Of a stretch of 64,000 nucleotides of DNA, positions 1,870 through 53,530 are shown one piece after another. The stretch is from Polytrichum commune (Eukaryota > Streptophyta > Polytrichopsida > Polytrichales > Polytrichaceae): contig OX485804.1 in assembly GCA_950295325.1 (NCBI GenBank), positions 23,870,001-23,934,000 of the forward strand. Direction: 5' to 3'. Numbering within the stretch: position 1 is the first letter of the stretch; each line of letters begins with the position of its first letter. The translations under genes were made by a program, and so were the position numbers. The notes below the pieces were generated by a model. The model searched no databases. It was not told where the DNA came from and worked only from the letters and a program-made list of their open reading frames with translations.

Positions 1870-2637
1870 TCAAATCAATTTATTGAGTTTGGCGAGCCTC
1901 ATGATGCTCTTATATACATTATCGTGAGGGCTTAGCGCCGCATTGCCGAAGGGGTTGGACCTAACAAAAAATGGGATGCTACCGGCGTGGAGCACGAGCC
2001 TTCTAAGGTAGGGGGCTAGCCTATCGACCAAAAATGTGTCTTGCCTATCGCCGGTCCAAGTGTCCGGGAAGATGACGTTGCCCGGGGGGTTCAAGACGCT
2101 TTTGGTGGGGCTGTCGTCGATGAGGAGGGTGTTCTCAGGAGTCGGCCACCACCCGTGGGGCGTCCCATGCAGACGGGGGACGCCTTGCCAGAGTCTTGAA
2201 CGGAGGACCTTGAGGAACTGTTGTCCTCCGCCTCGACCGCCAAACTTGGGCACCGGTCGGCCTTTCTCGTCGAGCAGCTCGTCGCAGTCCTCTTGGCCGA
2301 GGACGAGGCAAGGGCTCGGGAGATCACGGAATAAGAAGTGGACGATGGGCTCCGTGTTGTCCATGACCATGGAGCTCCACACAACGACGTGGGCGAACTC
2401 GACCACCTCGCGAAGGAAGTCCCGCAGGCCGGGACGGGCGCGGACAGCCTTGCGGTTAATGAGGGTGTCGAGCTCGCCGTCGTAGTCCCTTTCGTCGGGG
2501 TGACGGAAGGGACGCGTGGGGACCCTGGGGATGTGTTGGGTGTGACACAACACCCCGTTGAGGTCAAAAACGAGGAACGGTTTGTTCCGGGTTCGAGGTC
2601 CACTGGTCGAGGGGTTGCGACCTATCTCCGGGGGGTC
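1870..2637 (-). CDS. FCP1/NIF-type HAD phosphatase domain, probable last exon of the interrupted PAL gene
   Basis: The 255 codons match the NLI-interacting-factor (FCP1/SCP) branch of HAD phosphatases. HAD motif I is FDLNGVLCHT (minus, about 2568-2539). It is followed by RPGLRDFLREV, WSSMVMDN (motif II region) and NTLLIDDSPTKSV with FPDTW, the typical C-terminal acid motif. Active members read DxD; here the second Asp is Asn, so acid/base catalysis may be lost. There is no ATG upstream of motif I before an in-frame TAG at 2656-2658. Instead CATCACAG ends at 2638 as a good acceptor, making this a phase-0 downstream exon. Removing the hAT insertion puts it 623 bp downstream of a phase-0 donor of the DGQH gene on the same strand. 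I infer it is that gene's last exon. Alternatively it is a separate gene whose first exon I cannot see. The stop is TGA at 1870-1872. Confidence 0.7.
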   Translation of the reverse strand, partial: DPPEIGRNPSTSGPRTRNKPFLVFDLNGVLCHTQHIPRVPTRPFRHPDERDYDGELDTLINRKAVRARPGLRDFLREVVEFAHVVVWSSMVMDNTEPIVHFLFRDLPSPCLVLGQEDCDELLDEKGRPVPKFGGRGGGQQFLKVLRSRLWQGVPRLHGTPHGWWPTPENTLLIDDSPTKSVLNPPGNVIFPDTWTGDRQDTFLVDRLAPYLRRLVLHAGSIPFFVRSNPFGNAALSPHDNVYKSIMRLAKLNKLI

Positions 2638-3260
2638 CTGTGATGAACAACGCGACTAGTTTAATTCTATGATCCAATAAAAAAATTGTTGCGTTGAAAA
2701 TAAAGACGATGCATTATGGGAAAAGAGGAGGAAGTGAGGAGGGTGCAAGGAAAATGTTCAGAGGGGCACAATTGCGAACGACCGTTCGTGAATGAAGGCT
2801 GCGGGGCGGTGCGCATCATTTACGAACGCTCGTTCGTGAGCGCGGATGCATACATATACGAACGCTCGTTCGCGAAGGATGTCAAGATGGGGTCGCACAG
2901 TTTTACGAACGAGCGTTCGTGAGTGAGGTGTGCATGCAAAGAATGCAAGGACGCGCAAGAGCACAAACAACACAAGACGCGAGAATATGCAATAAGTTGA
3001 GGGGATGCGAGCAGAGATCGTCTGCTCATATATTAATTCGGTGAATATGTACATTTGTCTCGCGTGATAATCTATCACGATTTCCTAAGGAAAAAATGCA
3101 GTGTCCTACAAAATTGATCGGCCCAAGCGATCACGTAGAAAAATGCTCGCGCGGGCAACGTGATGTCGATGGAGTTGAAGCGCCAAGAACACAACGCGGG
3201 GGTTAGTGATATTACGAACGCGCATTCGTAAAACATTTGGCATTCTCAGAGATGAGTTAC
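2638..3260 (-). other. Inferred intron of the PAL gene, rich in palindromes
   Basis: The stretch lies between a GAG|GTAACT donor (3261/3260, minus) and the CATCACAG acceptor ending at 2638. Both sides are phase 0, as in the two confirmed introns of the same gene. It holds five copies of the ACGAACG-NN-CGTTCGT palindrome. The hAT element is inserted just 5' of the donor, so the exon-intron boundary today is separated from the rest of the gene. Confidence 0.5.
2775..3231. repeat. Palindrome cluster 1 (five copies)
   Basis: Copies of the 16-bp interrupted palindrome ACGAACG-NN-CGTTCGT, or close variants, start near 2775, 2822, 2859, 2906 and 3214. Most have A/T flanks that extend the dyad. Half-site conservation is high and the central two bases vary, as expected for a dimeric protein site. 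Before the hAT insertion this cluster was contiguous with cluster 2. Confidence 0.9.
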
Positions 3261-3265
3261 CTCTT

Positions 3266-3273
3266 TGATTAAC
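3266..3273 (+). repeat. Left 8-bp target-site duplication of the giant hAT
   Basis: TGATTAAC directly precedes the CAGGG terminus and is repeated exactly at 19,639-19,646 after the right terminus. An 8-bp duplication is the hallmark of hAT insertion. Confidence 0.95.
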
Positions 3274-3290
3274 CAGGGTTGTCTATCGCA

Positions 3291-3358
3291 ACGTCATGAC
3301 GGTGTCGTGCCGTCATGTCAGGTCGTGTCATGACGGACCCCTCCGTCACGACACAATA
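3291..3358. repeat. Left subterminal hairpin-forming repeats of the giant hAT
   Basis: Repeated inverted copies of the core GTCGTGACGG and its complement CCGTCACGAC form several possible stem-loops immediately inside the left terminus. The same core arranged in the opposite direction occurs at 19,552-19,628. Subterminal repeats of this kind bind transposase in known hAT elements such as Ac. Confidence 0.75.
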
Positions 3359-3540
3359 GGGTCCACGTAGGGTCAACATAGGGGGAATGGACTAGGGTGG
3401 GTAAAATACTTACCTTCTTGCCAAGGTGGCGTCCTATGTGGCAGAAAACGCCGACGTGGATGTGCATATTTCCCTTGCCAAGTAAACCATTTTGCCATTG
3501 TGTTTAGGGTTCTGTTAAAATCAAAGTAGAAAAATATGAC

Positions 3541-4475
3541 TAAGGAGGGTGTGGGGCGGCCGGGGGCGGACGGTGGGGCGGACGGGAGAGGGGGGTGGAG
3601 CGGACGGGGGAGGGGGGTGGAGCGGACGGGGGAGGGGGTGGAGCGGACGGGGGTGGGGCGGACGGAGGGGGGTGGAGCGGACGGGGGAGGGGGTGGAGCG
3701 GACGGGGGTGGGGCGGACGGAGGGGGGTGGAGCGGACGGGGGAGGGGGGTGGAGCGGACGGGGGAGGGGGTGGAGCGGACGGGGGTGGGGCGGACGGAGG
3801 GGGGTGGGGCGGACGGGGGAGGGGGTGGAGCGGACGGGGGTGGGGGTGGAGCGGACGGGGGTGGGGGTTGAGCGGACGGGGGTGGGGCGGAAGGGGGTTG
3901 GGAACGGGGGGGAGAACGCTGGAGCGGACGGGGGAACGTGGGGGTGGACGGGGGGAACGCGGAGGGCTCCGTCCGCCCCAAGTTCCCTCACGTCCGCCCC
4001 ACGTTCCCCCGCCGTGCGTTCACGTTCCCACACGTTTCCTAACGTCCGCACCCGTTCCCTACTGCGTTCCCCCCAGTCCGCACCCGTTCCCTCCCGTCCG
4101 CGCCCGTTCCCCCCCAGTCCGCACCCGTTCCCTTCCCGTCCGCCCCGCGTTCCCTTCCCGTCCGCCCCGCGTTCCCTTCCCGTCCGCCCACGTTCCCTCC
4201 CGTCCGCCCACGTTCCCTTCCGTCCGCCCCACGTTCCCTCCCGTCCGCCCCAGGTTCCCTCCCGTCCGCCCCAGGTTCCCTCCCGTCCGCGCTACGTTCC
4301 CCTCCCGTCCGCCCGCGTTCCCCTCCAGTCCGCCCCACGTTCCCCTCCCGTCCGCCCCATGTTCCCGTACGTTCCCTCCCGTCCGCGCTCCGTTCCCTTC
4401 CGTCCGCCCGAGTTCCCCTACGTCCGCCCCCTCGTTCCCTCCGTCCGCCCCCGCGTTCCCACGTTCCCCATACGT
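3541..4475. repeat. Guanine/cytosine-rich minisatellite 1, built as a large inverted repeat
   Basis: Positions 3549-3972 repeat GCGGACGGGGG-type units. From about 3973 to 4475 the complementary units run CCGTCCGCCC with CGTTCCC, so the two halves form a head-to-head inverted repeat centred near 3972. Long open frames through it on every strand come from stop-free repeats and are not genes. The array ends about 60 bp before the TATA box of the kinase-like gene. Confidence 0.9.
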
Positions 4476-4536
4476 CATTTTCGTGCCCCATGTCAAATCC
4501 GACCGGGATCCCATAATGATTGTGCTCCCCTTTGCC

Positions 4537-4545
4537 TATATAAAG
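4537..4545 (+). promoter_or_regulatory. TATA box of the kinase-like gene
   Basis: TATATAAAG stands 233 bp before the ATG at 4770 and directly after minisatellite 1. The leader contains several ATTCACTCACTC repeats (about 4690-4752). Confidence 0.65.
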
Positions 4546-4769
4546 CTGTGGGGTTTTAATTCCCCTCACTTTCCTCTCCTCCCACCACAAAGGGACCCGA
4601 GACCTTGTTGCCGTCCCAAGGACAGCGGCACCGCGCGGGTCTCAGGGGGTTTGGGAGGGCAGGGCAAATTGTGGGGGAACCCTCGCAATTTTTTTTCCAG
4701 ATTCACGCACTCATTTCTACATTCACTCACTCCTTTTTACATTCACTCACTCACGCGGTTTTTTTCACG

Positions 4770-6686
4770 ATGGAGGGGGAGGACATTGCTCCTTACCAAG
4801 ACGAGGATACGAGGCTGCACCGTGCTTGGCTCCAAAGCACTGCACTTGCGCATACTGGAGAGGGTACGGGAAGCGAGGCCGGAAGTGGAAGCACTGCAGC
4901 ACGTCCCCCACGTCCAGATCCTTTTCGGTTTGACGAAGAGTTCTTTGCAGTTGGCCATTCAGGAGACAACCAAACACGTGGAAGCCGTGGAACACGTGGG
5001 AGTCGGGGAAACAGTGGACATAGAGGGAGAACAGGAAGGGGACCAAGCTCAGGCAGTTCCACCGATATAAATGCAGCCACTCATGGAGAGTCCGTGCCAC
5101 CACGATCTCCGACACGGCGGACATCAAGACCGGAGAGCCCTGCACGTGATGTACCTCAGGGTTCGGAGCATGGTGAAAGACGGGGACAAAAACGCCCAGC
5201 AATTTCGGAAGGGACGGAGGAGGGGTCCGGGGTTTCAGGTTCGCAATCGAGGAAAATGAGAAATAGAGGCAAACGCGACCCGCGGATCGATGAGGCTCGA
5301 AACCATTGTAGGGTCGTGCTGTTGGAGTGGTTTAGAAATAACAGCATGGTTTATTTGGAAAAAAAATACCTCAATGATGGTACAAAGGGGTTGGATTTGG
5401 TGAGGAACGATTTGATTCTTATTCTCACGGAAGCCACGACTGGAGCGGAGTTTGAAGATGCTAGGGGCATGAGCGATTGGGGCACCTGGATTGAACAACA
5501 AGCCGTGGAAGCAATCTACAATCCAACAATGGCATATGATGCTGTGCATCCTAGCGAGGGAAGTAGTAGTGGCAGGAAGTCCGAGTTGTACATGAAGCTA
5601 GAGAATTGGAAAAGAGGCGTAATAGCAGCAAAAGGAACATCCGCCCGCAACCTTCCCATTTTTATTGACAGGCAGATGGCAGACAACATTGCCACCCAGG
5701 GCCGGCAGGGTGTCATATGGTTGCCTAGGAATGCGGAGATCAAAGCCTTGGATAAGGAAATCTTCCAAGGGACCTTCGGAGTGGTGCGGAGAGTCGCAAT
5801 TCATGGAGCATCATTCATCCCTAGCTAGATAGAGTGGGCTGGGAAGACCATGAAGGCCATGAATAGTTTGGAGAATCGAAAGGAACGTTCAGTTGAAGCA
5901 TTGGCGTGTCCAGTAGATCATCCTGGGGTAATCAAGCTACAATACTTCAATATGAAAACATACGAATCCTATTCGATGTGGTGGAATGGAGGCTCCTTGA
6001 AAAACATGAGGATCTATGACTTCAGCGTTCCGGAAACCCACGAGCGCACAATCCTTCACATGCCTGGGGCAGACTTTGAAGCACGGAAACGGTTGGTTGT
6101 ATATCGAAGGCATCGAGCTTATTTGGCATGGGCTCTAATGTGCATTGTGGATGTAGTGCACAAGCATGACGTGTTGCACAATGACCTTAATCCCAACAAT
6201 GTCATGCTGCATTTCCCACAAGACCGTGAAAACATGGTTTACATTGGTGTGTGTGATTGGGGCATGGCATCCTGGGGAGGTGAAGACGCACCCTCCAACT
6301 ATGGAAAAGATTCAGTGGATGAGATGAACAAGCACAAAGCAAAATACAACTGTGCTGGTCCAGAATTATTCCATGTACGAGGGCAGCGTGGAACATCCAC
6401 CTCTCCGGTGAGGATGGCTCGGAAACATAGGCACACGTTTCTATCGGAGTCCTTCTCAGTGGGTGCTTTGGCAAAGAAGATTTATGCCAGGGATGCGACT
6501 TCCCCCTTGTTTCAGCTAAACAGTGATCCAAATGGCTTGAATATGCGGTTTGAGTTAGCATTGGATTCATTGACGAAGACCAATCCAGCGGAAAGGTCAA
6601 CCATCACACACGTAGTGAACATTTTGAAGTCCCCTCCATACAACATGGTTAACCCGACAATGTGCTTCCGTGACACTGCAAAATAG
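4770..6686 (+). pseudogene. Divergent protein kinase gene (hAT cargo), one in-frame TAG
   Basis: The ATG at 4770 opens 639 codons. The first 190 or so residues are low-complexity (Gly/Ser/Arg-rich, disordered). A conserved region then leads into a protein kinase fold: glycine loop GTFGVVRRV at about codon 334, the lysine motif AGKTMK just after codon 353, catalytic loop HNDLNPNNV near codon 469, and VCDWGMAS in place of the usual DFG near codon 494. The catalytic Asp and the Asn that binds metal remain, so the fold could be active. Codon 353 (5826-5828) is TAG, between the glycine loop and the lysine. The frame continues without any other break, so I regard TAG as a point mutation of CAG or TGG, unless it is read through. 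It ends at TAG 6684-6686. It has its own TATA box and minisatellite. Its role in the transposon is unknown. Confidence 0.75.
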
Positions 6687-8978
6687 ATTTTTTTTGTTTT
6701 TTTTGCAACAATTTTGAATCATACCAATTTTGTAACCGTTGGAGATGTAAATAAAGCCATCATTTTTTCATACAAAACTTGTATATTGTATGAGGTTTAT
6801 GGATCTTAGTGCAATGTTCATACTACTCCATGAGGCCTTTGCTCCATAATCGAGAAGAAGTCTATGGGAGGCTAACCAAGGTTCTCGCCTCTCGTGAGGC
6901 CACATCCTTCTTTCACATCGTTGTTATCACATCCATGTGCTAAGTTCAAGTTAACTATAGTTATTTGTGATATGTCTTGAAAAAATGCAGTTACTTATAT
7001 TTATTCTAATTTTGGTATGCCACAAAATGTAGTCAACTATAGTTATATCTAGTTAACTAAAGTTGAGCACAATATTGCAATAGTTATATCGGTTGTACAC
7101 GTGATCCAAAACATCTCTAAATGTTATCTTTCTTCTACTCCCCACATATTGCACACTATAAATGTTAAACGTGTTAACAGTTAACAAAATGGTACTCCTT
7201 TCTTTGTAAATCTGACTCTATAAACGTTAACAGATGAAATACAACCATAATATGGATGATAAAAACTACACATCCAGTTACATTGATTCATATTCACTCG
7301 TGATTTGTAAACTTGATATTGAATAAAGTTTTGATTGGGTGTGCAATTTTATGAATGGTATTCTCTCACAATGAATCTTTACAATTGCTTATATTTATAT
7401 AATTCACAATCACTTTTTTTTGGAAGTTTGGACATATTCTTGGCCGTCCACGTTGAGAGGCCGTGCGATTGAGTGGCCCAACTTTGTTGATAGTCCAAAG
7501 AAATGAACTGAAAATAGCCAAGAAAATATAGTAAGGGTAGCCTTAGTTGGGCATAGTGTGAAGCCTCCAAAGGCCAATCCCAAAGTCCAAACTCAAAGGA
7601 GCATGCCACTTTATTCCTTGCTCAAAATAACCCCTCCAATCTAACGGCCAAGATCTTGTCAATGATTGATTATTTTAATGAAAAAAAAGTTCGGCCTCTC
7701 GACGGAAGTTTGGGTTGAGCATTTTGCTATACCCAATCTTTGCTCGAGAGGCCGAACTCTTGGCGCCATAACTTCCTAAAAGTGTTGCCACCTAGGCTCT
7801 TTTAGAGGCCACGTCCTTTGGACTTCGGCCTCTAGTGTGAAGGCCGAGAGGACGGACTTTGGGCATTTCAGCATTTTCATTGGTCCAAATGTTGAACCTC
7901 TCAAAGTTTGGCCATATTGTGAACCGGCCCTTATATTTGCAATACATGTCTTATTCTTTTTTGGCACAAATTGAAAATTCAAATTGAAAATACAACCAAC
8001 CCAGCCGAAACAGCGCAGCCTAAGTGGAAATCTAGAAATAATGCTCATTTGAGGCCTATCCTTCCAAGTAGGGACTAAGTTGCTACGGGTCACAGTAAGA
8101 CCTTTGACCCCCCAAATCAAATCAAATTTGTTAAGAATGTCATGGTAGGCCACGTCCGGGGCTTTTTCCAAGTCCCTAAGCATCTGTTTCCATTCAATCC
8201 TCCCATACTCTGATTTGTAATACATGTCATAAAAGCTAATGCAATTATTGTTTTGAAGTCTACCATCAAATGATATGTAAGATCGTATGTTCACTTGTGG
8301 TTGGTTCTTTTTATGTACCAGTTTAAGCCAATACTAAAATAAAATAAACCTTATTCTATAAAATCTAGTGACACTACCATACAAGTTAGTAGAGATGTTG
8401 TATATTTTTTTAAATTATTCTATATATTTACATAACTACAACTTATAATTTTGTGAAGAATAATACATAATACAACAAAGTTCAAATCAATACCTCTTTT
8501 GTGCACTCACATATACTCATACGGATTTAGTATAGTGCACCCCCCCCCAAATGATCACTAATGTGGGCCACATTAAATTTAAGCCCACACCAAATCCCTA
8601 GTTTAATATCAATGTGGACCATATTAATTTGCTTTTCTAGAATGTTCTAATTTGTGTAAGGTGTTGGTAAGATATCTTTATGAAGCCTATAGGAATTCGG
8701 GGGATGCACTCTACATTATGTTTGAGAATCACGTGCGTTCATGACCCCTTCTAAAAATCCCAATGTATACCATAAGTTATATGTCTAAGTAGAGATTGTG
8801 CCAACTTGAAGTAGTCCTCGTGATTTGCGAACGTTTAACTTTCGTTGTAGGCATCGTAAAAAAAAGCGGGTGGGTTCGTTGGAAAGCTGGGAACCTAAAC
8901 CCTCAAACCATGTATGGAAACACTTCTACATGAGTGAGAGAACAAAACAACGGCACATATGTGGTAGCAATTTGGAAT
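6687..8978. other. Non-coding interior of the giant hAT with a short inverted repeat
   Basis: Mostly AT-rich. A 15-bp inverted repeat (AGTTCGGCCTCTCG near 7690 and its complement near 7750) is embedded in a block rich in GGCCTCTC words (7430-7945). An open stretch on the minus strand (8294-7960) reads protein-like around YGRIEWKQMLRDLEK but has no recognisable domain or clear start, so I do not call a gene. A poly-C run lies at 8541-8550. Confidence 0.4.
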
Positions 8979-8982
8979 GACG

Positions 8983-9020
8983 TAGGGTTTAGGGTTTAGG
9001 GGTTTAGGGTTTAGGGTTTA
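8983..9020 (+). repeat. Interstitial telomere-type repeat (TTTAGGG)
   Basis: About five consecutive TTTAGGG units, one with an extra G. This is the plant-type telomere repeat, here inside the transposon. A tract in the opposite orientation occurs at 27,731-27,760. Confidence 0.9.
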
Positions 9021-9340
9021 TGAACCACAAAGGTTGAAGCACAAATATGTGAATTGTCGAATGAAAGGGCAAGGGGATGCGTGTGGGTTGTGAAACCATA
9101 CGAACCACTAAGGTTGAAGCTCAAATATGTGAATTGTTGAATGAAGATGGCATTCGGATGCCTAATATGCGTTGTGAACCATATGGACCACAAAGGTTGA
9201 AGCACAAATATGTACTTTGTTGAATTAATATAACATTCGAATGCGTGTGGGTTGTGAAACTATACGAACCACTAAGGTTGAAGCTCAAATATGTGAATTG
9301 TTGAATGAAAGGACAACCCATCAAATATAGAAGCTTCAAA
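9021..9340 (+). repeat. Tandem repeat, about 81-bp unit, four copies
   Basis: The core AGGTTGAAGC(A/T)CAAATATG recurs at 9031, 9111, 9194 and 9275, with intervening CGTGTGGGTTGTGAAAC segments. It follows the telomere-type tract directly. Confidence 0.85.
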
Positions 9341-9515
9341 GAGGTTTCCAATGCGGGTGTCGGGGGACTTTTTCAAAAAGTGCAACTAACTTTTTGACTT
9401 CACCAACTTTCTTTTTATTCCTATTGTGTTGTCTTTATCCTACCAACGAGAATTGGATCCTCTACATCTTGGATTACATCAAATATTGTATATTTCATAA
9501 AGTCCTTTGAGCTCA

Positions 9516-9523
9516 ATATATAA
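9516..9523 (+). promoter_or_regulatory. Possible TATA box of the small ORF at 9566
   Basis: ATATATAAG-type sequence about 43-50 bp before an ATG. That would leave a very short leader of roughly 15-20 bases. Confidence 0.35.
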
Positions 9524-9565
9524 GTAGAGCATTTAGACTCATACATATAACGAGGGTAGAGTATC

Positions 9566-10126
9566 ATGGATAGGATGGGAGAGAAGAGAGACATGTTTGA
9601 GGGTCTAGGATGTGATGAGGAGATAGAAAATTTAGGTGAACCCGATATTCCATTCAATCCATCAACCGAGCGTGAGAGAGATGAGAAATGTGTTAGGGAT
9701 CGATTTCATGATGAGTATGTCATGACTCCCTTCTCACAATCTACACAAGCTTGGAGGATGAGGGCGGAGGAGGACCAACGACGATATGCGGACAACTTTG
9801 AGATCGATGCGGTGGAGAATGACAACACACAATACGTGGGTGGAGATCTAAATGATCTGATTGATTTGTGTGCGGATATTTTAGAGAAGCCCGGGGATGT
9901 GGATGTGGAGGAGACTTCAATCGACATTGAAGATGTCAAGGTAGCGGGAGAATCTTCAAGGACTTTGCCTTTTCGTAAGAAGAGGAGAGGATTATCGCCT
10001 CATCGGCTACCATTGAAGGAACGGATGAAAGACCGAACGATTAGCTATGTTGATTTACTTCGACCGAATCCTCTCCCAAAAATGGACCTTCGACGGAAGC
10101 CACAAGCATCTACGAGGTTGCCATGA
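9566..10126 (+). CDS. Small ORF, 186 residues, unknown (hAT cargo)
   Basis: The ATG at 9566 follows an in-frame stop at 9557. The protein is acidic in its first two thirds (clusters such as DVDVEETSIDIEDVK around residues 112-126) and basic in the last third (RKKRRG, then KERMKDR). No domain is recognised. The amino-acid make-up resembles the acidic tail of the hAT transposase in this element, so it could be a displaced C-terminal exon of a related transposase rather than an independent gene. It lacks internal stops although the surrounding DNA is AT-rich, which favours real coding descent. Confidence 0.45.
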   Translation: MDRMGEKRDMFEGLGCDEEIENLGEPDIPFNPSTERERDEKCVRDRFHDEYVMTPFSQSTQAWRMRAEEDQRRYADNFEIDAVENDNTQYVGGDLNDLIDLCADILEKPGDVDVEETSIDIEDVKVAGESSRTLPFRKKRRGLSPHRLPLKERMKDRTISYVDLLRPNPLPKMDLRRKPQASTRLP

Positions 10127-10424
10127 CGGAAGTCAAGTTGACGGAATGAAGTGGAATATTAAATCGTGCATGGTTTGTTCATGTATGTGATTTATAAAGG
10201 GCATTTGTACCGTCGTCGCAATAATAAAGTCATTACTTGTACATCTTTGTCTCCATAGGGGTGATAATTTGTTGGTCATCATACTACATTGGTTACTTTG
10301 TTGCTTGAGGGATGCTTCATTAGTTTTGTGTGGATAAGTACACTGGTAATGATATTTAGTGTCACATATATTATTTGCAAAGGGCCTAAGTTAGATGGGG
10401 TACGGATTGGGGGACGCGGGAATG

Positions 10425-10582
10425 TGCAGTAGAAATATTATTGCATATTTATGTAGAGGACTTCATTACCTATCCATGGATACCAAGAACTCATTTTTTG
10501 GACTTCATATGAATTTTTGAGAGCCAAAAAACCGAAACTATGTCCAAACTTCCAAACTTGAAAAGTGCAGATTCAAAGGAAC
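10425..10582 (-). repeat. Inverted copy of the 192-bp module
   Basis: On the complementary strand this matches, at about 95 percent by eye, the tandem 192-bp repeat at 44,799-45,239 inside a different hAT-like element. Shared words include CCTATCCATGGATACCAAGA and TTTTTTGGACTTCATATG. It lies immediately before minisatellite 2. Confidence 0.85.
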
Positions 10583-10587
10583 TCGGG

Positions 10588-11280
10588 AGCGGACGTATGG
10601 GAACGCTAGAGCGGACGCAGGGGAACTCTAAAGCAGACGTAGGGGAACATGGGGCGGACTTATAGGAACGTTGGAGCGGACGTAAGGGAACATGGAGCGG
10701 ACGGGGGGGAGCGGAAGGGGGGGGGGGCGGGGGGGAGTGGACGGGGGGAACGCGGGAGCGGACTGAGGGGAGCGGACGTAGGGAACGAGGGGGCGGATGT
10801 AGGGAACGAGAGGGCGGACGTTTGGGAACGGGTGCGGACGGGGGTGGGAACGGGTGCGGATTGGGGGGGAACGGGCGCGGAAGGGAGGGAACGGGTGCGG
10901 ACGGGGGTGGGAACGGGCGCGGAAGGGGGTGGGAACGGGCGCGGAAGGGAGGGAACGGGTGCGGACTGGGGGGAACGCGGGGGGCGGACGTTTGGGAACG
11001 GGTGCGGACGGGGGCGGGAACGGGTGCGGACTGGGGGGGAACGGGCGCGGACGGGAGGGAACAGGTGCGGACTGGGGGGGAACGCGGGCGCGGACGGAGG
11101 GGAACGAGTGCGGACGGGAGGGAACAGGTGCGGACTGGGGGGGAACGCGGGCGCGGACGTAGGGGAACGAGTGCGGACGGGGGCGGGAACGGGTGCGGAC
11201 TGGGAGGGGAATGGGCGCGGACTGGGAGGGGAACGGGCGCGGACGGGTGCGAACAGGGTGGGAACGGGGAGCGGATGGAG
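10588..11280 (+). repeat. Guanine-rich minisatellite 2
   Basis: About 20-bp units of the form GGGAACGGGTGCGGACGGGG with variants (GGCGCGGAAGG, GTGCGGACTGG). It runs up to the TATA box at 11,284. Apparent ORFs through it are artefacts of the repeat. Confidence 0.9.
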
Positions 11281-11283
11281 GGG

Positions 11284-11291
11284 TATATAAG
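11284..11291 (+). promoter_or_regulatory. TATA box of the coiled-coil RING-like gene
   Basis: TATATAAG directly follows minisatellite 2 (GGAGGGG then TATATAAG). The first in-frame ATG is at 11,757, so the leader is about 440 bp and may hold a short intron. Confidence 0.6.
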
Positions 11292-11756
11292 TGGAGGGGA
11301 CCACTTACATATCCCACTCCACTCCTTGTGGGCGCCCGGACGACCCTCCTCTACTACAGAGTGCGGGGTTTAGCGGGGTGCTCGGAGGAGTTAAGGATCC
11401 TTTTTTTGGGATCCTTTTATATTTTTTTAATGACCTGTTTGTGGGTGTGATCCACATGGACCCGTTCCCTTGTAACGTGGCATATTGCCTTTTTGGCATA
11501 TTCCTTGTGACGCGCCCAGTCAACTGGCCTCTGCGTGAGCGCTGGTAGCGGGGTGCTCGAAGGGTGTGCTGAATTTTTGTACTTTAATTTTTAACGACAT
11601 TTTTGAACTAATTCCACAGCAACACTATTTTGAAGTGTATGCTTGGATGTTTTGTAGCACTATTATGAAGTGCAATTAATAATTTAAAAATTAGAGTTTA
11701 GATTAGAATTAGAAACTACAATTTGGGTGGATCCGGCAAGTGAAGGATTTCCAGAC

Positions 11757-19102: not shown

Positions 19103-19112
19103 GTATTCGAAT

Positions 19113-19628: not shown

Positions 19629-19638
19629 AACAACCCTG

Positions 19639-19646: not shown

Positions 19647-19801
19647 GAACGCGCGTTCGTAATATCCATTGGGGAAGCAGCCTCTGGATCCATGACCTCC
19701 ACTGGACGCTCCTCCTGAGACGACTGGGTCTGTTGGATGAGCTCCACGTCGTCGTCCCCGCCCAGGTTGAGTCTCTCCATGTGCGCGGACGGATGTCCTT
19801 C

Positions 19802-19804
19802 CTA
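19802..19804 (-). other. In-frame TAG with open reading frame beyond it
   Basis: After this TAG the same frame continues EGHPSAHMERLNLGGDDDVE and on to the hAT insertion site, with ordinary protein composition and no further stop. The stop is therefore probably a mutation inside a longer exon 3, not the natural terminus. Confidence 0.55.
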
Positions 19805-23980: not shown

Positions 23981-24538
23981 CTGCAGAGCACATAAACATT
24001 TAGTATTGTGTTTACGAACGAGCGTTTGTAATTGACAAGCAAATCATATATACTAATCAATGAACGCTGGCTATGGGTACCCGTGAGGAGTTTTAATTAT
24101 GTCTTCGCTGATTTCATTTACGAACGATCGCTAAGGTGTATTTGACACAAGTTTACGAACGTGCGTTCGTATTGTTTGTAAACAAGTCCACGAGTTGTCC
24201 AGTGTTATCTAATTTCCATGAGCATCTTCTAAATAGGTGAATTAATACTTTAGTTCTTAATTACGAACGTGCGTTCGTAAATTATGCTATTTGGGAATGC
24301 AGACAATTACCATTAAGGGTTTGGGATATTATTATAGTTTGTGATTACAAACGTTCGTTCGTATTTTTGTGTGTTTCATTTGGATTTGAGGATTTGAGGA
24401 TGTACAGGGTAAAGACGAATATACGAACGTGCGTTCGTAAAAATGGAGGGTGAGGTGCGTATTTACGAACGCACGTTCGTATATGTTTGTGGGGTAAGGC
24501 ATGTATTCACGCCACATTTACGAACGAACGTTCATAAA

Positions 24539-26304
24539 TGTGGTCATCTGGGATTAGGAAATGGTATATTTATTTATATACATATATCCGTACATATACG
24601 TATATGTACATATACGTATATATGTTGTTATGAATGTTGCAATCTGGCATTGTTCATGATCCTGCAACTCGTGATCAGATTGATGAAACACAAGTGAAAA
24701 ATGGAATCAGAACAAAATTGCGAGTCAGTGATTGATAGTTCAGAATGAAGAGGAAAGTGTTATTTCATACAAAGCATGCCATACCTCATAATGCAGAAAA
24801 CAAATCACAAGGAATTCATCAAACAACAATTTCAGATTGTGAAGGACTGATTTGTAAAGGAAACCTGTACTCACATTGAATTGTTGCACAGAAAACCTCC
24901 TGCTTCCTACTGAGAAATCCAGAAACCCTCACAAATGCACACCAAATTGTCTTTCAAAAGCGTTGAATTCGCTTTCAATTGTAATTTCACTTTGTCACAC
25001 TCTCAAGCCTTCACAACTTATATGCAAATCCTACACAAACCCTGATGTACACAACTCACAATCTTTAGAAATCTCAAGCTTTCTGAAACTCTCAAGCTCT
25101 CAAGCTTTCCAAAACTCTCAAGCTCTCAAGCTTTCTGAAACTCTCAAGCTCTCAACCTTTCTAAAACTCTCCACTTCTCAATCTTTCTAAAACTCAAGCT
25201 CTCAAGCTTTCTGTAACTCTCAACCTCTCAACCTTTCCTACTCTCAAGCTTTCCTATTCTCAAGGTTCTGACAACACAACAAAACAACATTCACAATGAG
25301 GCTCTAAAATTGGCAAGGGCTTCGCCGCACCTAAGAGCTCCTCTCCCCCTCTGCTCCAAATGACAAATGAGGAGGAGAGAGAGGGGCGCGGGGAGGTAGT
25401 CGGCGCCGCTAGGGTTTCCAAGCGGCAGCCACGTGGCTAGTGGCCACTGGCTAGGGCTGGGATGCGGGAGGGGGATGGGGAGGGGGATGGGGATGGAGGG
25501 AATGGGGAGGGAATGGGGAGGGGATGGGATGGGATGGGATGGGGAGGGGGATGGGGATGGAGGGAATGGGGAGGGAATGGGGAGGGGAGGGGATGGGATG
25601 GGATGGGGAGGGGAGGGGGAGGGGATGGGATGGGATGAGGATGGGATGGGAGAGGGGGAGGGGGAGGGGATGGGGATGAGGGGATACCATGGGGACATGG
25701 AGGGATGAGGGTTCAGGAAAAATGAAATAGGAGATGGGAGGAGCTTAGTTTAGGGACATAAATTTAACTTTCCGTATCCCCTTAGTACCTCGACATATGG
25801 ATTCCTTGTAAACATATTTTAGAAAAGTATGTTAAGATAATTTGTATTTAACAATTCATGTCATTTAGTAGGTTTTCGATGAAGAATCCACCCCCAAGAT
25901 GCAAATGTCGTTTTCATGAACGAGACATCTTTAAAGTTCTTCAATGGTTCCTCAAATACATATTACATATATAAATGACTCAATTTGAATTGTGGAGAGG
26001 GGCTATCTGATTCTCCACAAGAGGTGGATGAAAATTCAATTTTCAATACGATGTCATTAATTTAATGAGGTGTTAGCTTGAACCACCCTTAATATGATAT
26101 TTAGTGTTAGATACTCTAAATACAAACGCATAGTACACTAAATATCAGTAACCCTATGAAAGTAACTACTATTCATTGTGAACTCAAACACTTAATTTCA
26201 ACTATAATGGTAATATGTGGATGTCGCATGCACAAATTTTGTGTAAGGAAATTAATATGAAAAAAACAATTAACAATGATAAAAGCATAAAGGACATGGT
26301 AGTA
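24539..26304. other. Simple-repeat-rich spacer between the divergent PAL genes
   Basis: Alternating TATA/TACGTA microsatellite at 24,570-24,625; pyrimidine-rich CTCAAGCTTTC-type tandem repeats at 25,062-25,262; then the GGGATGG minisatellite listed separately. From 25,750 onward it is AT-rich with words such as GATATTTAGTGTTAG that recur at 27,300-27,580 and 41,800-44,400. I see no gene. Confidence 0.6.
25437..25700 (+). repeat. GGGATGG / GGGGAGG minisatellite
   Basis: Irregular head-to-tail copies of GGGATGG, GGGGAGG and GGAGGGAATGGGGA on the plus strand. The G-runs could form quadruplexes. Its sequence differs from the hAT minisatellites, which carry GCGGACG. Confidence 0.85.
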
Positions 26305-27277
26305 TGTCGCGCACCTCTCCATGAGGAGTGCCCGAAACACCATGGGCACAAGGGGGACCCCGGAGTGACACCCGGGACTTGTGGCGCCGTTGGTGAGAGG
26401 GCCCAAGTGATCCTAGTGTGGGTGAGGGCCCCGGGCGTTGGGAACGCCTCCCATCCACTGAGACTAGGAGGCACAAGGGTAAGGCCATGAGCTATGCGTA
26501 GCTCATGGCGTGGTGATTCTAGAAAGCTCAAGAACACCTCAATCGGAGGTGTGAGCTAGGAGTTATGGCCATTTGAGTGGGGCGCTGTCCCGGGACAGCG
26601 CCCTGGTACAGCAGTGCCTGGGAGTGATTCCCGGGACTGCCAAGGTTCAAACAGGCATAACTTCCTCAAGACTTGCCCGAATGGGGCAAGTGAGGTGTCC
26701 ATCGGCATCTACGTGAAGCGTAGATGAAGATGAAGTGGTTGGTTGCTGGAATCAGACATCATAAAAGGAAGTTATGATGGTCTGAAGCTGCAGGGGGGGT
26801 TCTAGGCCCAGCAGCTAAGGGAAAATGTCCACTTGGCCCCAACTCTTGGTAGAGAGACAAGAGGTTGGTTGACGGTGGGGTAGGGGCCCCGCGTAGAGTC
26901 CTAGAGGCTTATATGGGTGAGGTGGTGAGGCCTCACCCACCCGAGGCCGAACGGCAAGGCCTCCATGGGCTTTGGCCTATTGTGAGGCCATAGTTGCCTA
27001 GTATGGTTCGGGTTGTTGTAGTGTTGCTCCGGCAACGCGATGATCAACATAGGATTGGACTTCCATGGATGGAAGTCCACATTGGGGAAATGGGTTACCG
27101 ATTAAGGGGTGAATCCCGAAAGCAAAGTAGGAGGGTTGGTTCCCTCCTATGAACTATTGGTCCGGGGTAAGAGGAGCTATCCATTAGCATGGCGGAATGC
27201 GAATGGTTAGCGCTCGTAACCTTTGCTAGAAACGAAAATTGGCAAGATTGTTAAGGGACCTAGCAAGGGTTGCGACA
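26305..27277. mobile_element. Solo LTR, copy B, inverted relative to copy A
   Basis: 973 bp bounded by TGTCGC and GCGACA and flanked by the 5-bp duplication TAGTA (26,300-26,304 and 27,278-27,282). The complement matches copy A along its whole length with few differences. Different target duplications show two independent insertions. Confidence 0.95.
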
Positions 27278-27316
27278 TAGTAGGAAATGTGGTGGCCCAT
27301 TTAATATGTCCAACAC

Positions 27317-27584
27317 TAATTATCAAAGAATTGAAATTTAGTGTTGACCATGATAGTGTAACAACACAGTGACTATATTATACAATCAAACACTAAATAT
27401 CATATTTAGTGTAGTGTATTTTAGCCATGTGGTCGCATGTTTTGCTAGTAGTATCAAAGAATTGAAATTTAGTGTTGACCATGATAGTGTAACAACACTA
27501 TATTATACAATCAAACACTAAATATCATATTTAGTGTAGTGTATTTTAGCCATGTGGTCGCATGTTTTGCTAGTAGTATCAATA
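27317..27584 (+). repeat. Tandem duplication, about 130-bp unit, two copies
   Basis: ATCAAAGAATTGAAATTTAG through TTTTGCTAGTAGT is repeated twice; the first copy carries a few extra bases (AGTGAC). Each copy has the palindrome CACTAAATAT-C-ATATTTAGTG. Confidence 0.85.
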
Positions 27585-27730
27585 ATTGATAGTATGAGCT
27601 TCCCATAAATTAAGTTAGTGCGATATGGATTATTTAGGAGTCGATATTGTTTGTGTATATAATGCATTGAAGTAACGATCTAAACCCTAAGCCCGCAAAC
27701 CACATAGACAACTTTCACAAACTCTATACC

Positions 27731-27760
27731 CTAACCCCAAACCCTAAACCCTAAACCCTA
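27731..27760 (-). repeat. Interstitial telomere-type repeat (CCCTAAA)
   Basis: Four CCCTAAA-like units on the plus strand, opposite in direction to the tract at 8983-9020. Confidence 0.85.
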
Positions 27761-27766
27761 CATTTT

Positions 27767-29103
27767 TTTACCTTACCAACCTTTCTTATATATGGCCATG
27801 TTGTGGTCTATGGGCATCATGTCAAAATGGTCTACAAATGTTGGTTCGATTGGAACTTGCCTTATTTGGGTCATAGCAACTATAATAATCTAGACTCATG
27901 CCAATAATTGTCATTTTGATATAAAACATTGGTTTAGGGGGTGAAGAATGAATTTTGAAATGCTAGCCCTTTCACCTTAATAGTTTTGAGTGCAATTTGA
28001 TCACAAAATACACACTTAGTCTTATTATAACATGAATGGTTTAAGACTTCAACTTAAATCAACAGTTTAAGCTATGGTCATGCACATACTTCTTGTTACA
28101 AATAATACAAATATATAATTGTAAGTGCATACTATTGTATGCACCATTCTAAATTAGTTATCCATTTTCACACTATGGTGGACCTAAAGTGAATTTCCAA
28201 TAGGACGTCAAGTCATTTAATTAGGTGCCAACTTGAACTAATGATCGAATACTAGTGCATTAAACTTTAATTTTCACCAATGATGAATTGCAACAATGAG
28301 TCATATTAATATAGGGCGATGTTTGGTGAGCCTCCAGTTCCAAATGTCCTCAATCTACCTAGCACAAGCCACTATGGATTAAGCGACTTTTTATTGGTAT
28401 TCATGCACTTGGTGACCATATTACAAGCATTTTTTTATGTGAATCATATGATACCTACAATTTTAGGGGATTCCACAATATGTTCTTAGCCACTTTTACC
28501 TCATTGTGTGTGTGAATATATATATCACTTAGACCTTCATCAATTCACTTGGACTTCACACCTTAGTCGCAAATAATTTAATACTCAATGTTAACCCATC
28601 AACCCATATATATAAAATATAATAACCCATATATAAAATAGTAAAATAGTAAAATAGTAAAATATACACATATATATATATGTCTATATATATATATATA
28701 AATATAGACATATAGACATATAGACATATTTTCGTGCGACCTTGGTAACAACTAAGGTGTGCGACGGATTTATAGATTTACAATATGTTGCGTGCATGCA
28801 ATACATGTTCCATACATAATGCTATTTATATATTGCGCATGGATGGAATGACATATTGTTAGGTCAAAATAGGCGGCGGGAATCCGCTTTTTAAATAGCA
28901 TCCAAGGGATTTTGAACCATCGGGGGAAAGATACTTAAAGCTCTTCCCCCCACAGAAGAGCTATTTTCTGTGACACATCCAAGTGTGCGCTCCACAGACC
29001 TGACTGGAACGCGCTCAAACCATTTTCTTGTGCGCCAACCCCACACCTCCCAGGTCCACTACAGACTATACATACCCGTATATACCGCTGCAAATACCGG
29101 ACG
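27767..29103. other. AT-rich spacer without a visible gene
   Basis: It includes an AGTAAAAT and (TA)n microsatellite at 28,605-28,740 with ATAGACAT repeats. From about 28,860 the base composition rises and the palindrome region of the DUF7869 gene begins. Confidence 0.5.
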
Positions 29104-30412
29104 TTTACGAACGCACGTTCGTAAACGTGAGTTGGTAGCACATGCACAAGAGGTACATAGAGATGATATGAATTGTTTACGAACGTGCGTTCGTAAGTTG
29201 TTCACAACCGTACTCGACATTGAGTTACTTATAGATAGAACTAGGCACGAAAATTGTGTCGATTATATACGAACGTACGTTCGTATATCTGCCTTCAAGA
29301 CCCAGACGCGCATGAGTTCCCGTGTAACCGTTTTCTCCAACGGAACATTTGATGATGGGATATTTACGAACGTGCGTTCGTAAATATCACCTGGGATTAT
29401 TTTTCAAGAATCCATAAACAATCCTTAATTTACACACTTCCGTGCATTGGCCACGTTAACAATATGGAAGTTAAATACGAACGTTCGTTCGTATTTCTCA
29501 CTACCATTTATGTCCACAGAGAATTATGTTTTCCAATTTTACGAACGCACGTTCGTAAATACCACCTGTCCACCGTCCACACATCCACCAACAGACCTGT
29601 TAACGCAAGCATGTGTGGAGGACTACACCATGTTTAGGATAGATACGAACGCTCGTTCGTATTTGGCACTACCATTTATGTCCACGGATAATTATGTTTT
29701 TCAATTTTACGAACGCACGTTCGTAAATACCACCTGTCCACCGTCCACGCATCCACCAACAGACCTGTTGACGCAAGCATGTGTAGAGGACTACACTGTG
29801 TTAATGATAGATACGAACGCTCGTTCGTATCTGTTCAATCACGATTTTAGTGATAGATGTCGATTGTCATTTTCCATTGGATATTGAATTTCATGTATCC
29901 CTGTAACGTGGCTATAGATATCTCTATTCGGACGTGTCCAATCATTTTTGCCTAACATTGTCACGGCTGTAACATACATATGATCGGTCGTATGCATCCG
30001 CCCCTATGTTTCGGCTGGAACTTACGAACGATCGTTCGTGTACATAAGCCCTCCATTTCGGCTGTAGCTAATGAACGATCGTTCATAAACACTCGCCCAT
30101 CAAATACACGCCCCTCAAATATGATGCTTACTGCATGTGAATAAAGTGGCAAGTATATTTTTGGTGCTCTTATAATATGTCCCATTTAGATTTTGTTGTA
30201 TATTGGGTTGATGTTTTCGTCCTCGCGTACGTGAATATATGTCCTTGTGTTGTCCCTTGGTGGTGGAAAACCCTTCCAATGTTTTATTTGCGACTCCACC
30301 AAAGCCCTTCATGGGTAATATATATCGGAATGGGGTTCCGTTGTGCAGGGACGTCAGAGTCCCGTGTAGGATTTGTATGTCATGGGGATGTTGTCGAACG
30401 CACGTTCGTCTT
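29104..30412. repeat. Palindrome cluster 3 (twelve copies) upstream of the DUF7869 gene
   Basis: Copies start near 29,106, 29,179, 29,269, 29,365, 29,476, 29,541, 29,644, 29,709, 29,813, 30,024, 30,071 and 30,398. Spacing is mostly 60-110 bp. The dyads at 29,362-29,386 and 29,266-29,288 extend over more than 20 bp. A segment of about 168 bp that contains two palindromes is itself duplicated (29,475-29,642 and 29,643-29,810). Confidence 0.95.
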
Positions 30413-30552
30413 CATATGTGAGGTCCCTCAACGGTGTGTCGAGTGTTGGTTGTGATTTTTCAGCCATATATGTAGGCATATCTCATATCCGCTTTTGTAT
30501 GCATTGCGGTTGTTGGTGTGTTGGTCATTTATTGGTGGTTTGTTTAGGTTGG

Positions 30553-33500
30553 ATGGCGATGCACGTTGGATATAGTTCATTGGAGTTGTCCACAAAAGCT
30601 TCCTCTTCCGATGGTGACTGTGAACTATCTTCGGCATCGGCGGGTAGTCATGGCATGGCAAATGCCATGGGTGGGTTTGTGGATGCATCCTTCCACGAAT
30701 CATTTGAAGCGCACGAACAATCTATACGTTCCGGGGATGACAATCATGGCATTCCGTTATGTGCCGGTTTCGGTAGGGAGCAATGGGTGGGCCTTGATGT
30801 TGTTCTTTTCAACGATGTTGGTGTCCCGGTGGCAGATGGCATATGTAGAAACTCCGATCCCCGTGATTGTGTGGATGCCAACCCCCTTGGTCCCGATGAT
30901 GTGGGTGTGTGCATCTTGAATTCTTTTCTTCCGCTTGACGTCCCGGTGACATGGAGATTTTCCTTGCGTCGATGGCCTCTTTGTCGGGTTCTCCATGACG
31001 GAATAAGCTTGTTGGACCATGAGCAGCGCCATAAGCAAACGCAATTAGCTTTGTTGGCCAAAATACGTCCTCGCAAAGGCCTACGCAGATATGATTCTAA
31101 CCGTGTGCCTCGTGGAGATAAAGAACGTCGACGGGATCGCATATTGGGAGACGAATCTATCTGTCTTGTGTCCGCCAAGGACTGTTGCGAGAGGAAATGT
31201 TGCCAATTTTTCCCACGGGAGAAAATTAAGTCCCTACATCAAGAGATGTGGCTTGCGGATTTCCGTATGAGATCGGCAAAGAAACTCGAGGTCCACAGAA
31301 ATGTCCACATTGACACCCATGGGCATAAGGTGGTCACACTTGAGAATGTGGAAGTGTGTTGTACTGCGTGGTATACTATCCACGCCGTGTCAAAGTCTGA
31401 CTTTTATAGGTTTCAAAAGTATTCATCGTTGGGTCGCCACTCTCGATTTCATGGCAATTCGGGCACAAAGAAACCTAGGGAGGCTACACTCCAAGCCTCC
31501 GCGACACTCTCCACCATCATAGTCCCATTGGCCGATGCAATGCCCCACAAGACGAGGACATTGTCGTCAGGGGAGAAAGTTGTACAAATGGTGTTGCCCA
31601 CGGGTACAAAATGGAAGAACATATTAACGGACATCAATGAAGTGGGTTGCATAGCGGGATGTGGGCCCATTTCTTTGTCCAAGTTGAGTGTGATTAAAAA
31701 CCAACAGTTTACCGAATACATTTTGAAGAGACCTGGGGACAAGTTCGCTAGGTGTACGACGTGTGAAAAATACAAAGGTCTTCGAGACGCCCACCCCATA
31801 GGCACCGAATCCCACACTAGACACCAAGCAAAATATATTGAACATGTCAACAACCAAGAGGCTCACCGTCGAGATTACTACAAGAACCGTGCTCTATCCA
31901 TAATGAGGCCTACAGAGGTTCTAACAATCATCCATGATAAAATGGACCACGCCAAGACCGCATGCCCTTGTTATGCACGCAAAATAAAGGCCACGGATGG
32001 TCTCTTCAAGTTGCCCGTATCTGTCACAGGTTTGTATTGAATCACAAATAATCTGTATTCAAATTCTCTCAAATTTTACTGGGTGTGTTTGCCAAATGTC
32101 CAATTTCATACCTCCGTTTGGAGTTGTCGTTGTTATTGTTGTTGTTCAAGCATCGTTTGTTTTTTTCCGCAGGGATGATTGCCCACGGCCATGGAGACGT
32201 AAAGTATGCCCATTATGGGTTGGATTTTTACCCTGGCGATGCTAACCACACAGTGGGTTCATTTGCAAAACTCTTGCGCGATTTGGAGAAGCCGCCGTTA
32301 CATTCATCACGTGCATTTTTTGATGGTTGTGGAACGACACCCCTTTACGAAGCAGTGCTTGCGGGGAAGGAGGTTTGTATGTCGTCATTGCCAGAACCAC
32401 CGGGAGAACCTATTTGTGCAAAACCATTGCCTCCAACTCTTCACGTTCAACTTGATAATTGCGCAAAAGACAACAAATGTCGATATGTATTTTGTTATTG
32501 GTCATTGCTCGTGGCGAAAGGAATCTTTAAGGAGGTGTTTGTGTCGTTTTTGATGGTGGGACATACACACGACGACATTGATGCATCATTCGGACGGTGG
32601 AGTATGAAGTTGCATGAAGAAGATTTTCCAACCATACTTCTTCTTATGAAATCGTATATGGATTTGGACCATATGCCAGTAATTCCGCACATGATTGAGG
32701 AAGTACCAAATTTCAAGGCCTTCATCAAGTCATACATGTTGAAGGGAGAGGACCGTTTGGTGGGGCATACCAAAGCACAACAATTCCGATTCTATATAAG
32801 GGATGATGGTCTCCCAGCCATGCAATTCAAGCTTTTGTGCACATCTCCTAATTGGGGCCCGGATGATGGTATACTTGTATGGCGTCAAGACAATGATGGC
32901 AAATGTTTGCTCCCGGATGGGGATCCAAAGCCTTGCAAACCCGACCCCATGAGGAATGGGCCGGAAATCATCAAAGGCATATCCGGATTCATTGAATATT
33001 GGAAAGAGTTGTGTGAGGAAGACATTACTAGACGTGTTAGCGATACTCATGAACCTTTGATTGCGTATTGGGATCGCATTCGTTCCGCCCTAATGACACT
33101 TGGTGGTGACACCCGTACAACTTTAACACAAGGATTTTGGCCACAAAGTCGTTTGACGTTTGTCGAGTCCGACACCATGGTTTTTAGCAATGGAGACGTT
33201 CGTGAAGAGTTCGCAATGGACGAGCATTACGTTGGCCCTGCCCGCAATCGACCGGCACCGTCGTTTCGTGTAGGTGTTGATTGCCATGAAGGTTATTTGG
33301 TCCTTGTACGAGCAGGGGATGAGGAACATCCCAAGCCAATTTGGTTGGTGAAAGCATTGTCTTCACCCAATTTTGTTCGAACTAGCCCCAACTTTCGTCA
33401 GATTGAGGTGGAATATTGTCGTCCAAGTACTAAAGACCAAAACGTGCTACGCACTTATTTAGGTTGGGACACCAAAAAGAATTTTAAGTGGACAGTGGAC

Positions 33501-33692
33501 TCAGCGTACACACCGGTTTGGATAAACACGGATACTATACTTTGTGCTTGGAAGCCGCGCAAAGGGTCCAAAACAGAAACAATGACCATCCCCCAAAAAC
33601 ATATAGATTTTGCCAAAGACAACTTGGCACGTATTGCAGCGGCAGAAAATGACGCCGAGAATGGATATGAAGCGGAAGATGGAGATGTGTAA
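30553..33692 (+). CDS. DUF7869-type putative transposase, two exons, intact
   Basis: Exon 1 is 30,553-32,029 and exon 2 is 32,173-33,692, joined by a 143-bp GT-AG intron (CACAG|GTTTGT ... TTCCGCAG|G). The product has 998 residues and no internal stop. A Cys-rich stretch (CCERKCCQFF, near residue 220) and a CTTCEKYKGLRDAH element precede IIHDKMDH (about residue 460), LHVQLDNCAKDN (about 585) and MVGHTHDDID (about 620). The last two are the defining blocks of the DUF7869 family. The spaced acidic residues suggest an RNase H-like DDE/D nuclease; that assignment is inference. The start is the first Met of the conserved-looking frame. GTTTGTTTAG just before it may be an acceptor, so a 5' exon could lie in the palindrome region. 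It stands divergent to the DGQH gene and is the best candidate for the PAL element's transposase. Confidence 0.85.
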
Positions 33693-53518: not shown

Positions 53519-53530
53519 ATATCGGGGATA

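Follow-up and report, generated by a model that had tools for sequence, protein, structure and literature searches.

The window analysed here is a 64,000-nucleotide stretch of the Polytrichum commune genome (contig OX485804.1, positions 23,870,001 to 23,934,000), in which a single mobile element occupies positions 438-34095. The element carries two divergent genes, one encoding a protein of the Pfam family DUF7869 and the other, the DGQH gene, encoding a large protein with an IDGQH motif, and it contains all 31 copies in the window of the palindrome ACGAACG-NN-CGTTCGT. The explanation that we consider best, and reasonably probable, is that this is a DUF7869 transposon whose DGQH protein binds the palindrome of its own family and thereby counters silencing.

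The element is bounded by 29-bp terminal inverted repeats, which agree at 28 of 29 bases with one mismatch, and by the target site duplication TTGG. A preliminary description, made from the letters of the window, had placed a transposon at 1870-33692 and suggested aligning other copies to locate its termini. The transposon is indeed there, and it is larger: together with the inverted repeats and TTGG, alignments to copies L015, exact as far as 438, and L009, reaching 34096, set its ends at 438 and 34095. By arithmetic, about 16.3 kb remains after a nested hAT element and an inserted piece resembling a long terminal repeat (LTR) are subtracted, rather than the 14-15 kb first estimated. The two divergent, intron-containing genes of that description were found as described, with DUF7869 (two exons, forward strand) opposite the DGQH gene (reverse strand).

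One way of assessing whether such ends define a lineage is to look for them elsewhere in the genome (407.8 Mb, 64 contigs). Allowing up to two mismatches, one strand has 1,040 occurrences of the end sequence and the other 1,041, against 0 for a control sequence. Among the first 100 exact ends listed, 22 neighbouring pairs less than 60 kb apart face inward and 4 do not, and in 8 cases the end sits 404-409 bases from the end of a DUF7869 match. Ten copies were then picked among head-to-head gene pairs, their end positions predicted and the sequence fetched. The inverted repeat was present on both sides in all ten, and the 4-bp duplications agree in seven (ATAA, ATGT, ACCT, CTCT, ACTA, CAAG, and CTAA), giving 8 of 11 with the window included, a result with a probability of about 1e-17 by chance. 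The recurrence of such inverted repeats and duplications across the genome identifies the lineage as one of cut-and-paste DNA transposons. The DUF7869 protein is probably its transposase, judging from its place beside the mobile-element ends and from acidic (D/E) motifs that can be read by eye as those of a DDE/D-type transposase; DUF7869 is the only family that Pfam finds in this gene, with no Mutator-type transposase.

The palindrome is far more frequent in the window than chance would allow: 31 matches with at most two mismatches, where 0.07 are expected and 100 shuffles gave a maximum of 2. The matches span 1530-3229 and 19645-30409, with none in the 29.9-kb right flank, the 433-base left flank or the nested hAT. 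There are 7 upstream of the DGQH gene, 12 upstream of the DUF7869 gene, 1, 3, and 6 in DGQH introns 1, 2, and 3, one in exon C, and one in the left segment. The three DGQH introns and the two upstream regions carry 7-22 sites per kb, while coding segments hold none or one each; exons A and B, the phosphatase (NIF) exon, the DUF7869 exons and the intron between them, and the middle intergenic part have none. The preliminary description had counted about 32 copies, confined to introns and the shared upstream region; the number and the absence outside the element hold, but two copies are probably coding, and the DUF7869 intron and the middle part are empty. One of the two, at 20018, encodes LRTRVR in exon C and is retained in copy L015; the other, at 1530, lies to the left of position 1870 within the conserved segment 858-1793.

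Aligned, the sites define a longer symmetric operator, W-T-ACGAACG-NN-CGTTCGT-A-W, with the middle bases free. Columns outside it carry no more than 0.5 bit, so the sites are more than copies of one repeat, barring a 168-bp tandem duplication at 29459-29794 in the DUF7869 upstream region. The core CGAACG-NN-CGTTCG resembles the Gram-positive LexA (SOS) box, probably by coincidence. Since no palindrome lies within 1 kb of either end of the element in the window, these are not transposase end sites, and subterminal transposase sites were rejected.

Table 1. Features of the element and its nested insertions, in window coordinates.
Feature	Position	Strand	Evidence or remark
Target site duplication TTGG (left)	434-437	.	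Sequence; equals 34096-34099
Left terminal inverted repeat AACACTATATTCGGTAATTGGAGACTTTT	438-466	+	Inverted-repeat match; L015 alignment stops at 438; genome-wide end listing
E3, conserved segment downstream of phosphatase exon	858-1793	-	Exon limits and frame uncertain; holds palindrome 1530
NIF/FCP1-like phosphatase exon	1870-2655	-	Acceptor near 2636; Pfam NIF
Five palindromes, intron between exon C and NIF exon	2774-3229	.	Motif scan
Nested hAT including its two 8-bp duplications GTTAATCA	3266-19646	-	16.4 kb; element proper 3274-19638; 0 palindromes
Inverted second copy of LTR-like piece	15979-16953		Inside hAT
hAT DUF659 transposase	17672-18922		Within nested hAT; Pfam
Palindromes 19645 (intron 3) and 20018 (coding exon C)	19645-20033	.	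Motif scan
DGQH exon C	19802-21022	-	In-frame TAG near 19802 in window copy; frame longer in L015
DGQH intron 2	21023-21245	-	3 palindromes
DGQH exon B	21246-22571	-	GGS motif at its end (methyltransferase-like by motif alone)
DGQH intron 1	22572-22687	-	1 palindrome and a 3-mismatch site at 22664
DGQH exon A	22688-23980	-	IDGQH motif near residue 338; genome matches
DGQH-gene upstream region, 7 palindromes	23981-24560	.	Motif scan
Shared intergenic region	24561-28900	.	0 palindromes; aligns to copies L009, L010, L012, and L014
Inserted LTR-like piece, 973 bp	26305-27277	.	Second, inverted copy inside hAT
DUF7869-gene upstream region, 12 palindromes	28901-30552	.	Motif scan
DUF7869 exon 1	30553-32029	+	CxxC motif; start codon uncertain
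DUF7869 exon 2, probable transposase	32173-33692	+	Pfam DUF7869, 1.2e-37
Right terminal inverted repeat	34067-34095	-	Inverted-repeat match; L009 alignment stops at 34096; genome-wide end listing
Target site duplication TTGG (right)	34096-34099	.	Sequence

Genome-wide, the palindrome of this family (family 1) occurs exactly 5,602 times, and the reversed pattern used as a control 4 times. Exon A gives 97 scored matches (the best of 1,083 candidates, 85-100% identical, window included), several with identical scores, so the amplification of family 1 looks recent. All 30 exon A loci that were excised, the window among them, hold 5-11 exact palindromes per ~4.3 kb. For DUF7869 exon 2 there are 85 scored matches (the best of 1,862 candidates, window included); 66 have a scored exon A match within 50 kb, 58 of them divergent. 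In 55 of the 85 the two lie head to head within 15 kb, whereas the mean over 1,000 random placements was 0.14 and the maximum 2; the gap is 6.6-9.0 kb in 54 of these pairs and 3.3 kb in one. Among the scored matches 42 of the 97 exon A hits are unpaired; both lists are the best of longer ones, so an unpaired DUF7869 or exon A match cannot be called solo. The palindrome thus does keep company with the genes and the genes with each other, and the central proposal of the preliminary description, a transposon of two divergent genes united by a palindrome, is borne out by ends, pairing and enrichment.

Several family-1 copies show this arrangement in whole or in part. The copy read as L048, L010, and L011 shows the full order of DUF7869 exons 2 and 1, palindromes, exons A, B, and C, NIF, and E3; the copies L049+L012+L013 and L050+L047+L014+L015 give a partial view of it, and L016 covers exon C to E3 only, in a 5 kb read. 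Copy L009 has 42 family-1 palindromes (up to two mismatches) and one end, but the 9.9 kb read from it contain no exon A; the centre dinucleotides of its palindromes are often CC and GG, unlike those of the window. Two C5 copies (L059-L062, near 2.35 and 2.59 Mb) share a left flank and differ in the right, and only one has a matching duplication, which points to recombination or segmental duplication.

The palindrome is not the same in all relatives of the element. Beyond the family-1 end of L015, a diverged DGQH-gene relative was met that has a palindrome of its own, TTTGGGTCG-NN-CGACCCAAA, present five times upstream of its start; the adjoining stretch continues that gene, which is interrupted by stop codons, and adds seven further sites, of which four fall between the exon A and exon B matches. 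This family-2 palindrome occurs exactly 9,731 times in the genome (control 0), and 52 distinct sites give the operator W-G-TTTGGGTCG-NN-CGACCCAAA-C-W. The family-2 DGQH domain has 150 scored matches (the best of 952 candidates), at 87-100% identity and with many identical scores, which point to recent spread.

A fuller family-2 copy (C1:1174918-1193533) has ends on both sides that differ from the family-1 end at 3 and 6 bases, the duplication CCTT, the same gene order as the window, and breaks in exons A and B. Compared with the window, its DUF7869 protein is 65% identical in exon 2 and 58-72% in exon 1, whereas exon A is 34% identical over 427 residues, exon B 36-39%, and exon C 23%; NIF and E3 are both at 43%, the latter over 86 residues. 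DUF7869 exon 2 at 65% is thus set against 23-39% for the DGQH exons. The family-2 palindromes lie upstream and at the positions of introns 1, 2, and 3, matching the family-1 layout. Among the loci read there is no cross-occurrence: L071-L077 hold no site of the family-1 type (up to two mismatches) and the family-1 loci none of the family-2 type (up to three mismatches), the five of L015 lying beyond the family-1 end.

A third family was recognised in an element chosen from end pairs without a scored gene match, of which 2.5 kb was read. Its exon A is 43% identical to that of the window, and its palindrome, ACGGACG-NN-CGTCCGT, one symmetric base away from that of family 1, occurs exactly six times, five upstream and one directly after exon A, at the position of intron 1; a variant of its own was therefore found in the one element so chosen. 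Palindrome and DGQH family change together in three families, the third known from one short stretch, while the layout stays.

Because the palindrome differs between families at unchanged places and is near-perfect within unrelated flanks, a sequence-reading protein encoded by the element is likely to bind it. Passive origins, by spread of tandem repeats or as relics of a common ancestor, would account for the sites that do lie in tandem duplications (the 168-bp repeat of the window, and regular spacings in families 2 and 3), yet the flanks are unrelated at most sites and families 1 and 2 carry different palindromes at corresponding places, so that we find this hardly credible. Very improbable, too, is a role as host transcription factor sites or as RNA hairpins maintained by selection on expression or splicing: promoters and introns would be the right locations and the RNA form could pair, but families 1 and 2 of one host genome have wholly different motifs with the places kept. 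RNA hairpins were rejected, since the sequence itself is fixed beyond what pairing needs.

Which of the two proteins would bind is suggested by what diverges. The ends and DUF7869 change less between families, whereas the palindrome and the DGQH protein change much, which makes the DGQH protein the better candidate; binding would presumably be dimeric. We regard it as quite improbable that the palindromes serve the DUF7869 protein or transposition complexes instead. They do co-occur with DUF7869, but the lack of sites near the ends speaks against this, as does their difference between families whose ends are similar and whose DUF7869 exon 2 is still 65% identical.

The exons on both sides evolve mostly under purifying selection, as judged from the ratio of nonsynonymous to synonymous substitution rates (dN/dS) between the window and other copies, after removal of codons containing a gap, stop or N. 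For exon A the ratio is 0.06 against two diverged copies (synonymous divergence, dS, ~1.1) and 0.16-0.32 against three close ones, that for a third diverged copy not being computable; exon B gives 0.03-0.14 against diverged copies. Exon C (0.20-0.24), NIF (0.14-0.20), E3 (0.28-0.45), and DUF7869 exon 1 (0.20-0.30) complete the series. dS is uneven across segments (~1.1 for exon A and 0.15-0.37 for NIF), which suggests that modules have been exchanged between subfamilies.

Functional annotation of the DGQH protein is more difficult. The preliminary description had read ParB and methyltransferase parts in it, recommending profile and structure searches; in Pfam, NCBIfam, PHROGs and PDB searches with the DGQH exons neither family appeared, and the best weak match was a PHROG of unknown function to the N-terminal part (E 0.003). 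Searches of viral contigs, phages and plasmids with DGQH exon A and DUF7869 exon 2 gave nothing useful. AlphaFold returned a mean predicted local distance difference test score (pLDDT) of 35 for exon A alone and 34 for its 196-residue DGQH part, both covering the ParB-like region; with no family named by the searches and scores this low, we claim none. What remains of that identification is a set of short conserved motifs: IDGQ (IDGQH in 9 of 10 aligned sequences), WKA..VW.DD..KL..IS...N.GN in the same alignment, and, at the exon B/C junction, NVxGGSKxxYAAM, which all three aligned sequences from two families retain. A DPPY-like motif was not seen in the methyltransferase-like part, where IDFR stands at the expected place. 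The phosphatase is more secure, with a Pfam NIF match of 5.1e-16 (59.2 bits against a curated cut-off of 21.8) and the segment present in families 1 and 2, although the single chain with the DGQH exons in which it had been placed is putative; the exon reads DLNGV where DxDxT/V is usual.

ParB loads at palindromic parS sites, and one can imagine a ParB-like clamp, fused to a methyltransferase that may be degenerate, loading at the palindromes and spreading to protect or modify the element DNA. The conservation of IDGQ and NVxGGSKxxYAAM across families speaks for such a clamp; the failure of profile and PDB searches, the missing DPPY-like motif and the low pLDDT speak against it, and we judge it unlikely. 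Phages possess ParB-CTPase folds fused to N6/N4 methyltransferases (PMC12704722), and the DGQH gene is similar in that a methyltransferase-like GGS motif comes after one of DGQ/ParB-like type; it differs in the absence of a sequence match and of a visible motif IV, in belonging to a plant transposon with introns, and in its extra phosphatase segment. Somewhat unlikely, in our estimate, is a broader version in which at least three families are independently tuned to their own palindromes by a ParB-like, methyltransferase-derived clamp unrelated to VANC. Such a clamp would load on palindromes resembling parS and either keep the element open or mark it, as a eukaryotic means of telling self from other DNA, and the phosphatase may act on chromatin or RNA polymerase II.

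The closest known parallel is found in the VANDAL elements and their VANC proteins. VANDALs are Mutator-like, whereas here a DUF7869 protein is accompanied by a DGQH/phosphatase gene. VANC21 motifs form tandem repeats located in introns and in one upstream region (PMC5735166), and VANC6 represents a further family-specific motif system in Arabidopsis VANDALs (PMC10398659). The likeness consists of an element-encoded, family-specific system whose short motif is densely placed upstream of genes and within introns, is in part tandemly repeated, and varies between related families; the differences are degenerate terminal repeats and 8-9 bp motifs in VANDALs, against 29-bp terminal repeats, 4-bp duplications and 20-24 bp palindromes here, and binding and demethylation that are demonstrated for VANC and putative here. 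Pfam gave no significant match for the DGQH exons. With another transposase and other ends, the element is not a VANDAL; the VANC analogy drawn in the preliminary description has nonetheless gained strength, sister families having different palindromes in corresponding places.

We propose that the DUF7869 protein would act on the AACACTATA... ends to give 4-bp target duplications, and that the large DGQH protein, most likely as a homodimer, would bind the palindrome of its own family at some 30 promoter and intron places. The bound protein would hold the non-coding parts open against host silencing and so allow both genes to be expressed, as a VANC-like anti-silencing or self-activation switch, and the family-specific palindrome would restrict its action to its own copies. 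Anti-silencing is ranked first because VANC systems share the intron and promoter layout, the tandem repetition of some sites and the specificity of motif to family. Ranked second is autorepression or copy-number control, in which an element protein on the promoter and intron palindromes would repress both genes, family-specific operators avoiding cross-regulation. Symmetric, operator-like sites of 20-24 bp at both promoters and their family specificity are what such a repressor would use, but about 30 sites over 16 kb, three introns included, exceed the need of a simple operator, and the layout agrees with that of VANC targets; we think it rather unlikely. The ParB-like clamp or mark comes third, and the three are mutually compatible.

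There are several observations that weigh against anti-silencing by a DGQH protein within a two-gene transposon, and the reader should keep them in mind. The layout of the sites fits repression as well as activation, some sites are probably coding, and profile and sequence searches found no known DNA-binding domain in the DGQH exons. Constraint on exon B is weaker against three close copies (dN/dS 0.27-0.61). Three of the ten picked copies lack a matching duplication, and only 8 of the 22 inward end pairs among the first 100 listed hold a scored exon A or DUF7869 match. In the best-scored list, 30 of the 85 DUF7869 matches have no divergent scored exon A within 15 kb; of the 66 that do have a scored exon A at up to 50 kb, 8 are not divergent. 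Four of the six family-3 sites are 135 bases apart and may represent one tandem repeat. Finally, the observed-to-expected CpG ratio is low (0.34-0.57) in the site-free, 4.3-kb intergenic middle, so that CpG gives no clean signal of an unmethylated element; with mixed values, CpG content was rejected as a sign of unmethylated DNA.

As for classification, CACTA elements such as En/Spm have ends starting CACTA and a 3-bp duplication, and En/Spm has the protein TnpA and subterminal motifs. The window element likewise encodes a second protein and repeats a short motif many times, but its motifs lie in the interior and avoid the ends, its ends start AACACTA and its duplication is 4 bp; CACTA membership was rejected on the latter two grounds. 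Sola elements reportedly (Bao et al. 2009) have 4-bp duplications and a DDD transposase. On duplication length membership in Sola is possible, the putative likeness being the 4-bp duplications and the DDE/D-type transposase read from motifs. We know of no two-gene, palindrome-rich layout in Sola. A Physcomitrella Sola1 has been listed (PMC9033089).

The element has itself been invaded. The hAT is missing from the corresponding site in copies L010/L011 and L015, and the LTR-like piece from that in L010/L011, identifying both as insertions. One hAT 8-bp duplication overlaps the edge of palindrome 19645, and in copy L016 exon C is broken by hAT-like DNA at a different place. The two window copies of the LTR-like piece, one in the hAT and one in the element, are inverted and 97% alike; the piece is found again in L012-L014 and L047, where it interrupts exon B in some cases. 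The palindrome-free middle (24561-28900) was also considered as a nested insertion, and this was rejected: ends of a separate insertion were sought there and none found, and the region aligns to other copies and is therefore native. Outside the element, at 53519-58830, long frames resemble by eye a protein kinase, an NB-ARC-like part and about 35 leucine-rich repeats of 24 residues, which form a 72-bp tandem array at 56187-58751; the fusion of a kinase to a nucleotide-binding leucine-rich repeat protein is typical of bryophytes.

Our literature search, which covered part of the matching papers, found no mention of 'DUF7869' and no description of such a system. If an element protein does read the palindromes, the VANC principle would have a second example, apparently with different proteins: selfish DNA would tell its own copies from all other DNA by a sequence code, and would alter that code while diversifying. 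The code is legible from sequence, with three palindromes and thousands of sites for each of the two that were counted, and since near-identical recent copies exist, swaps of specificity are directly testable. It would also supply a group of new palindrome-binding proteins and place DUF7869 genes in a biological setting.

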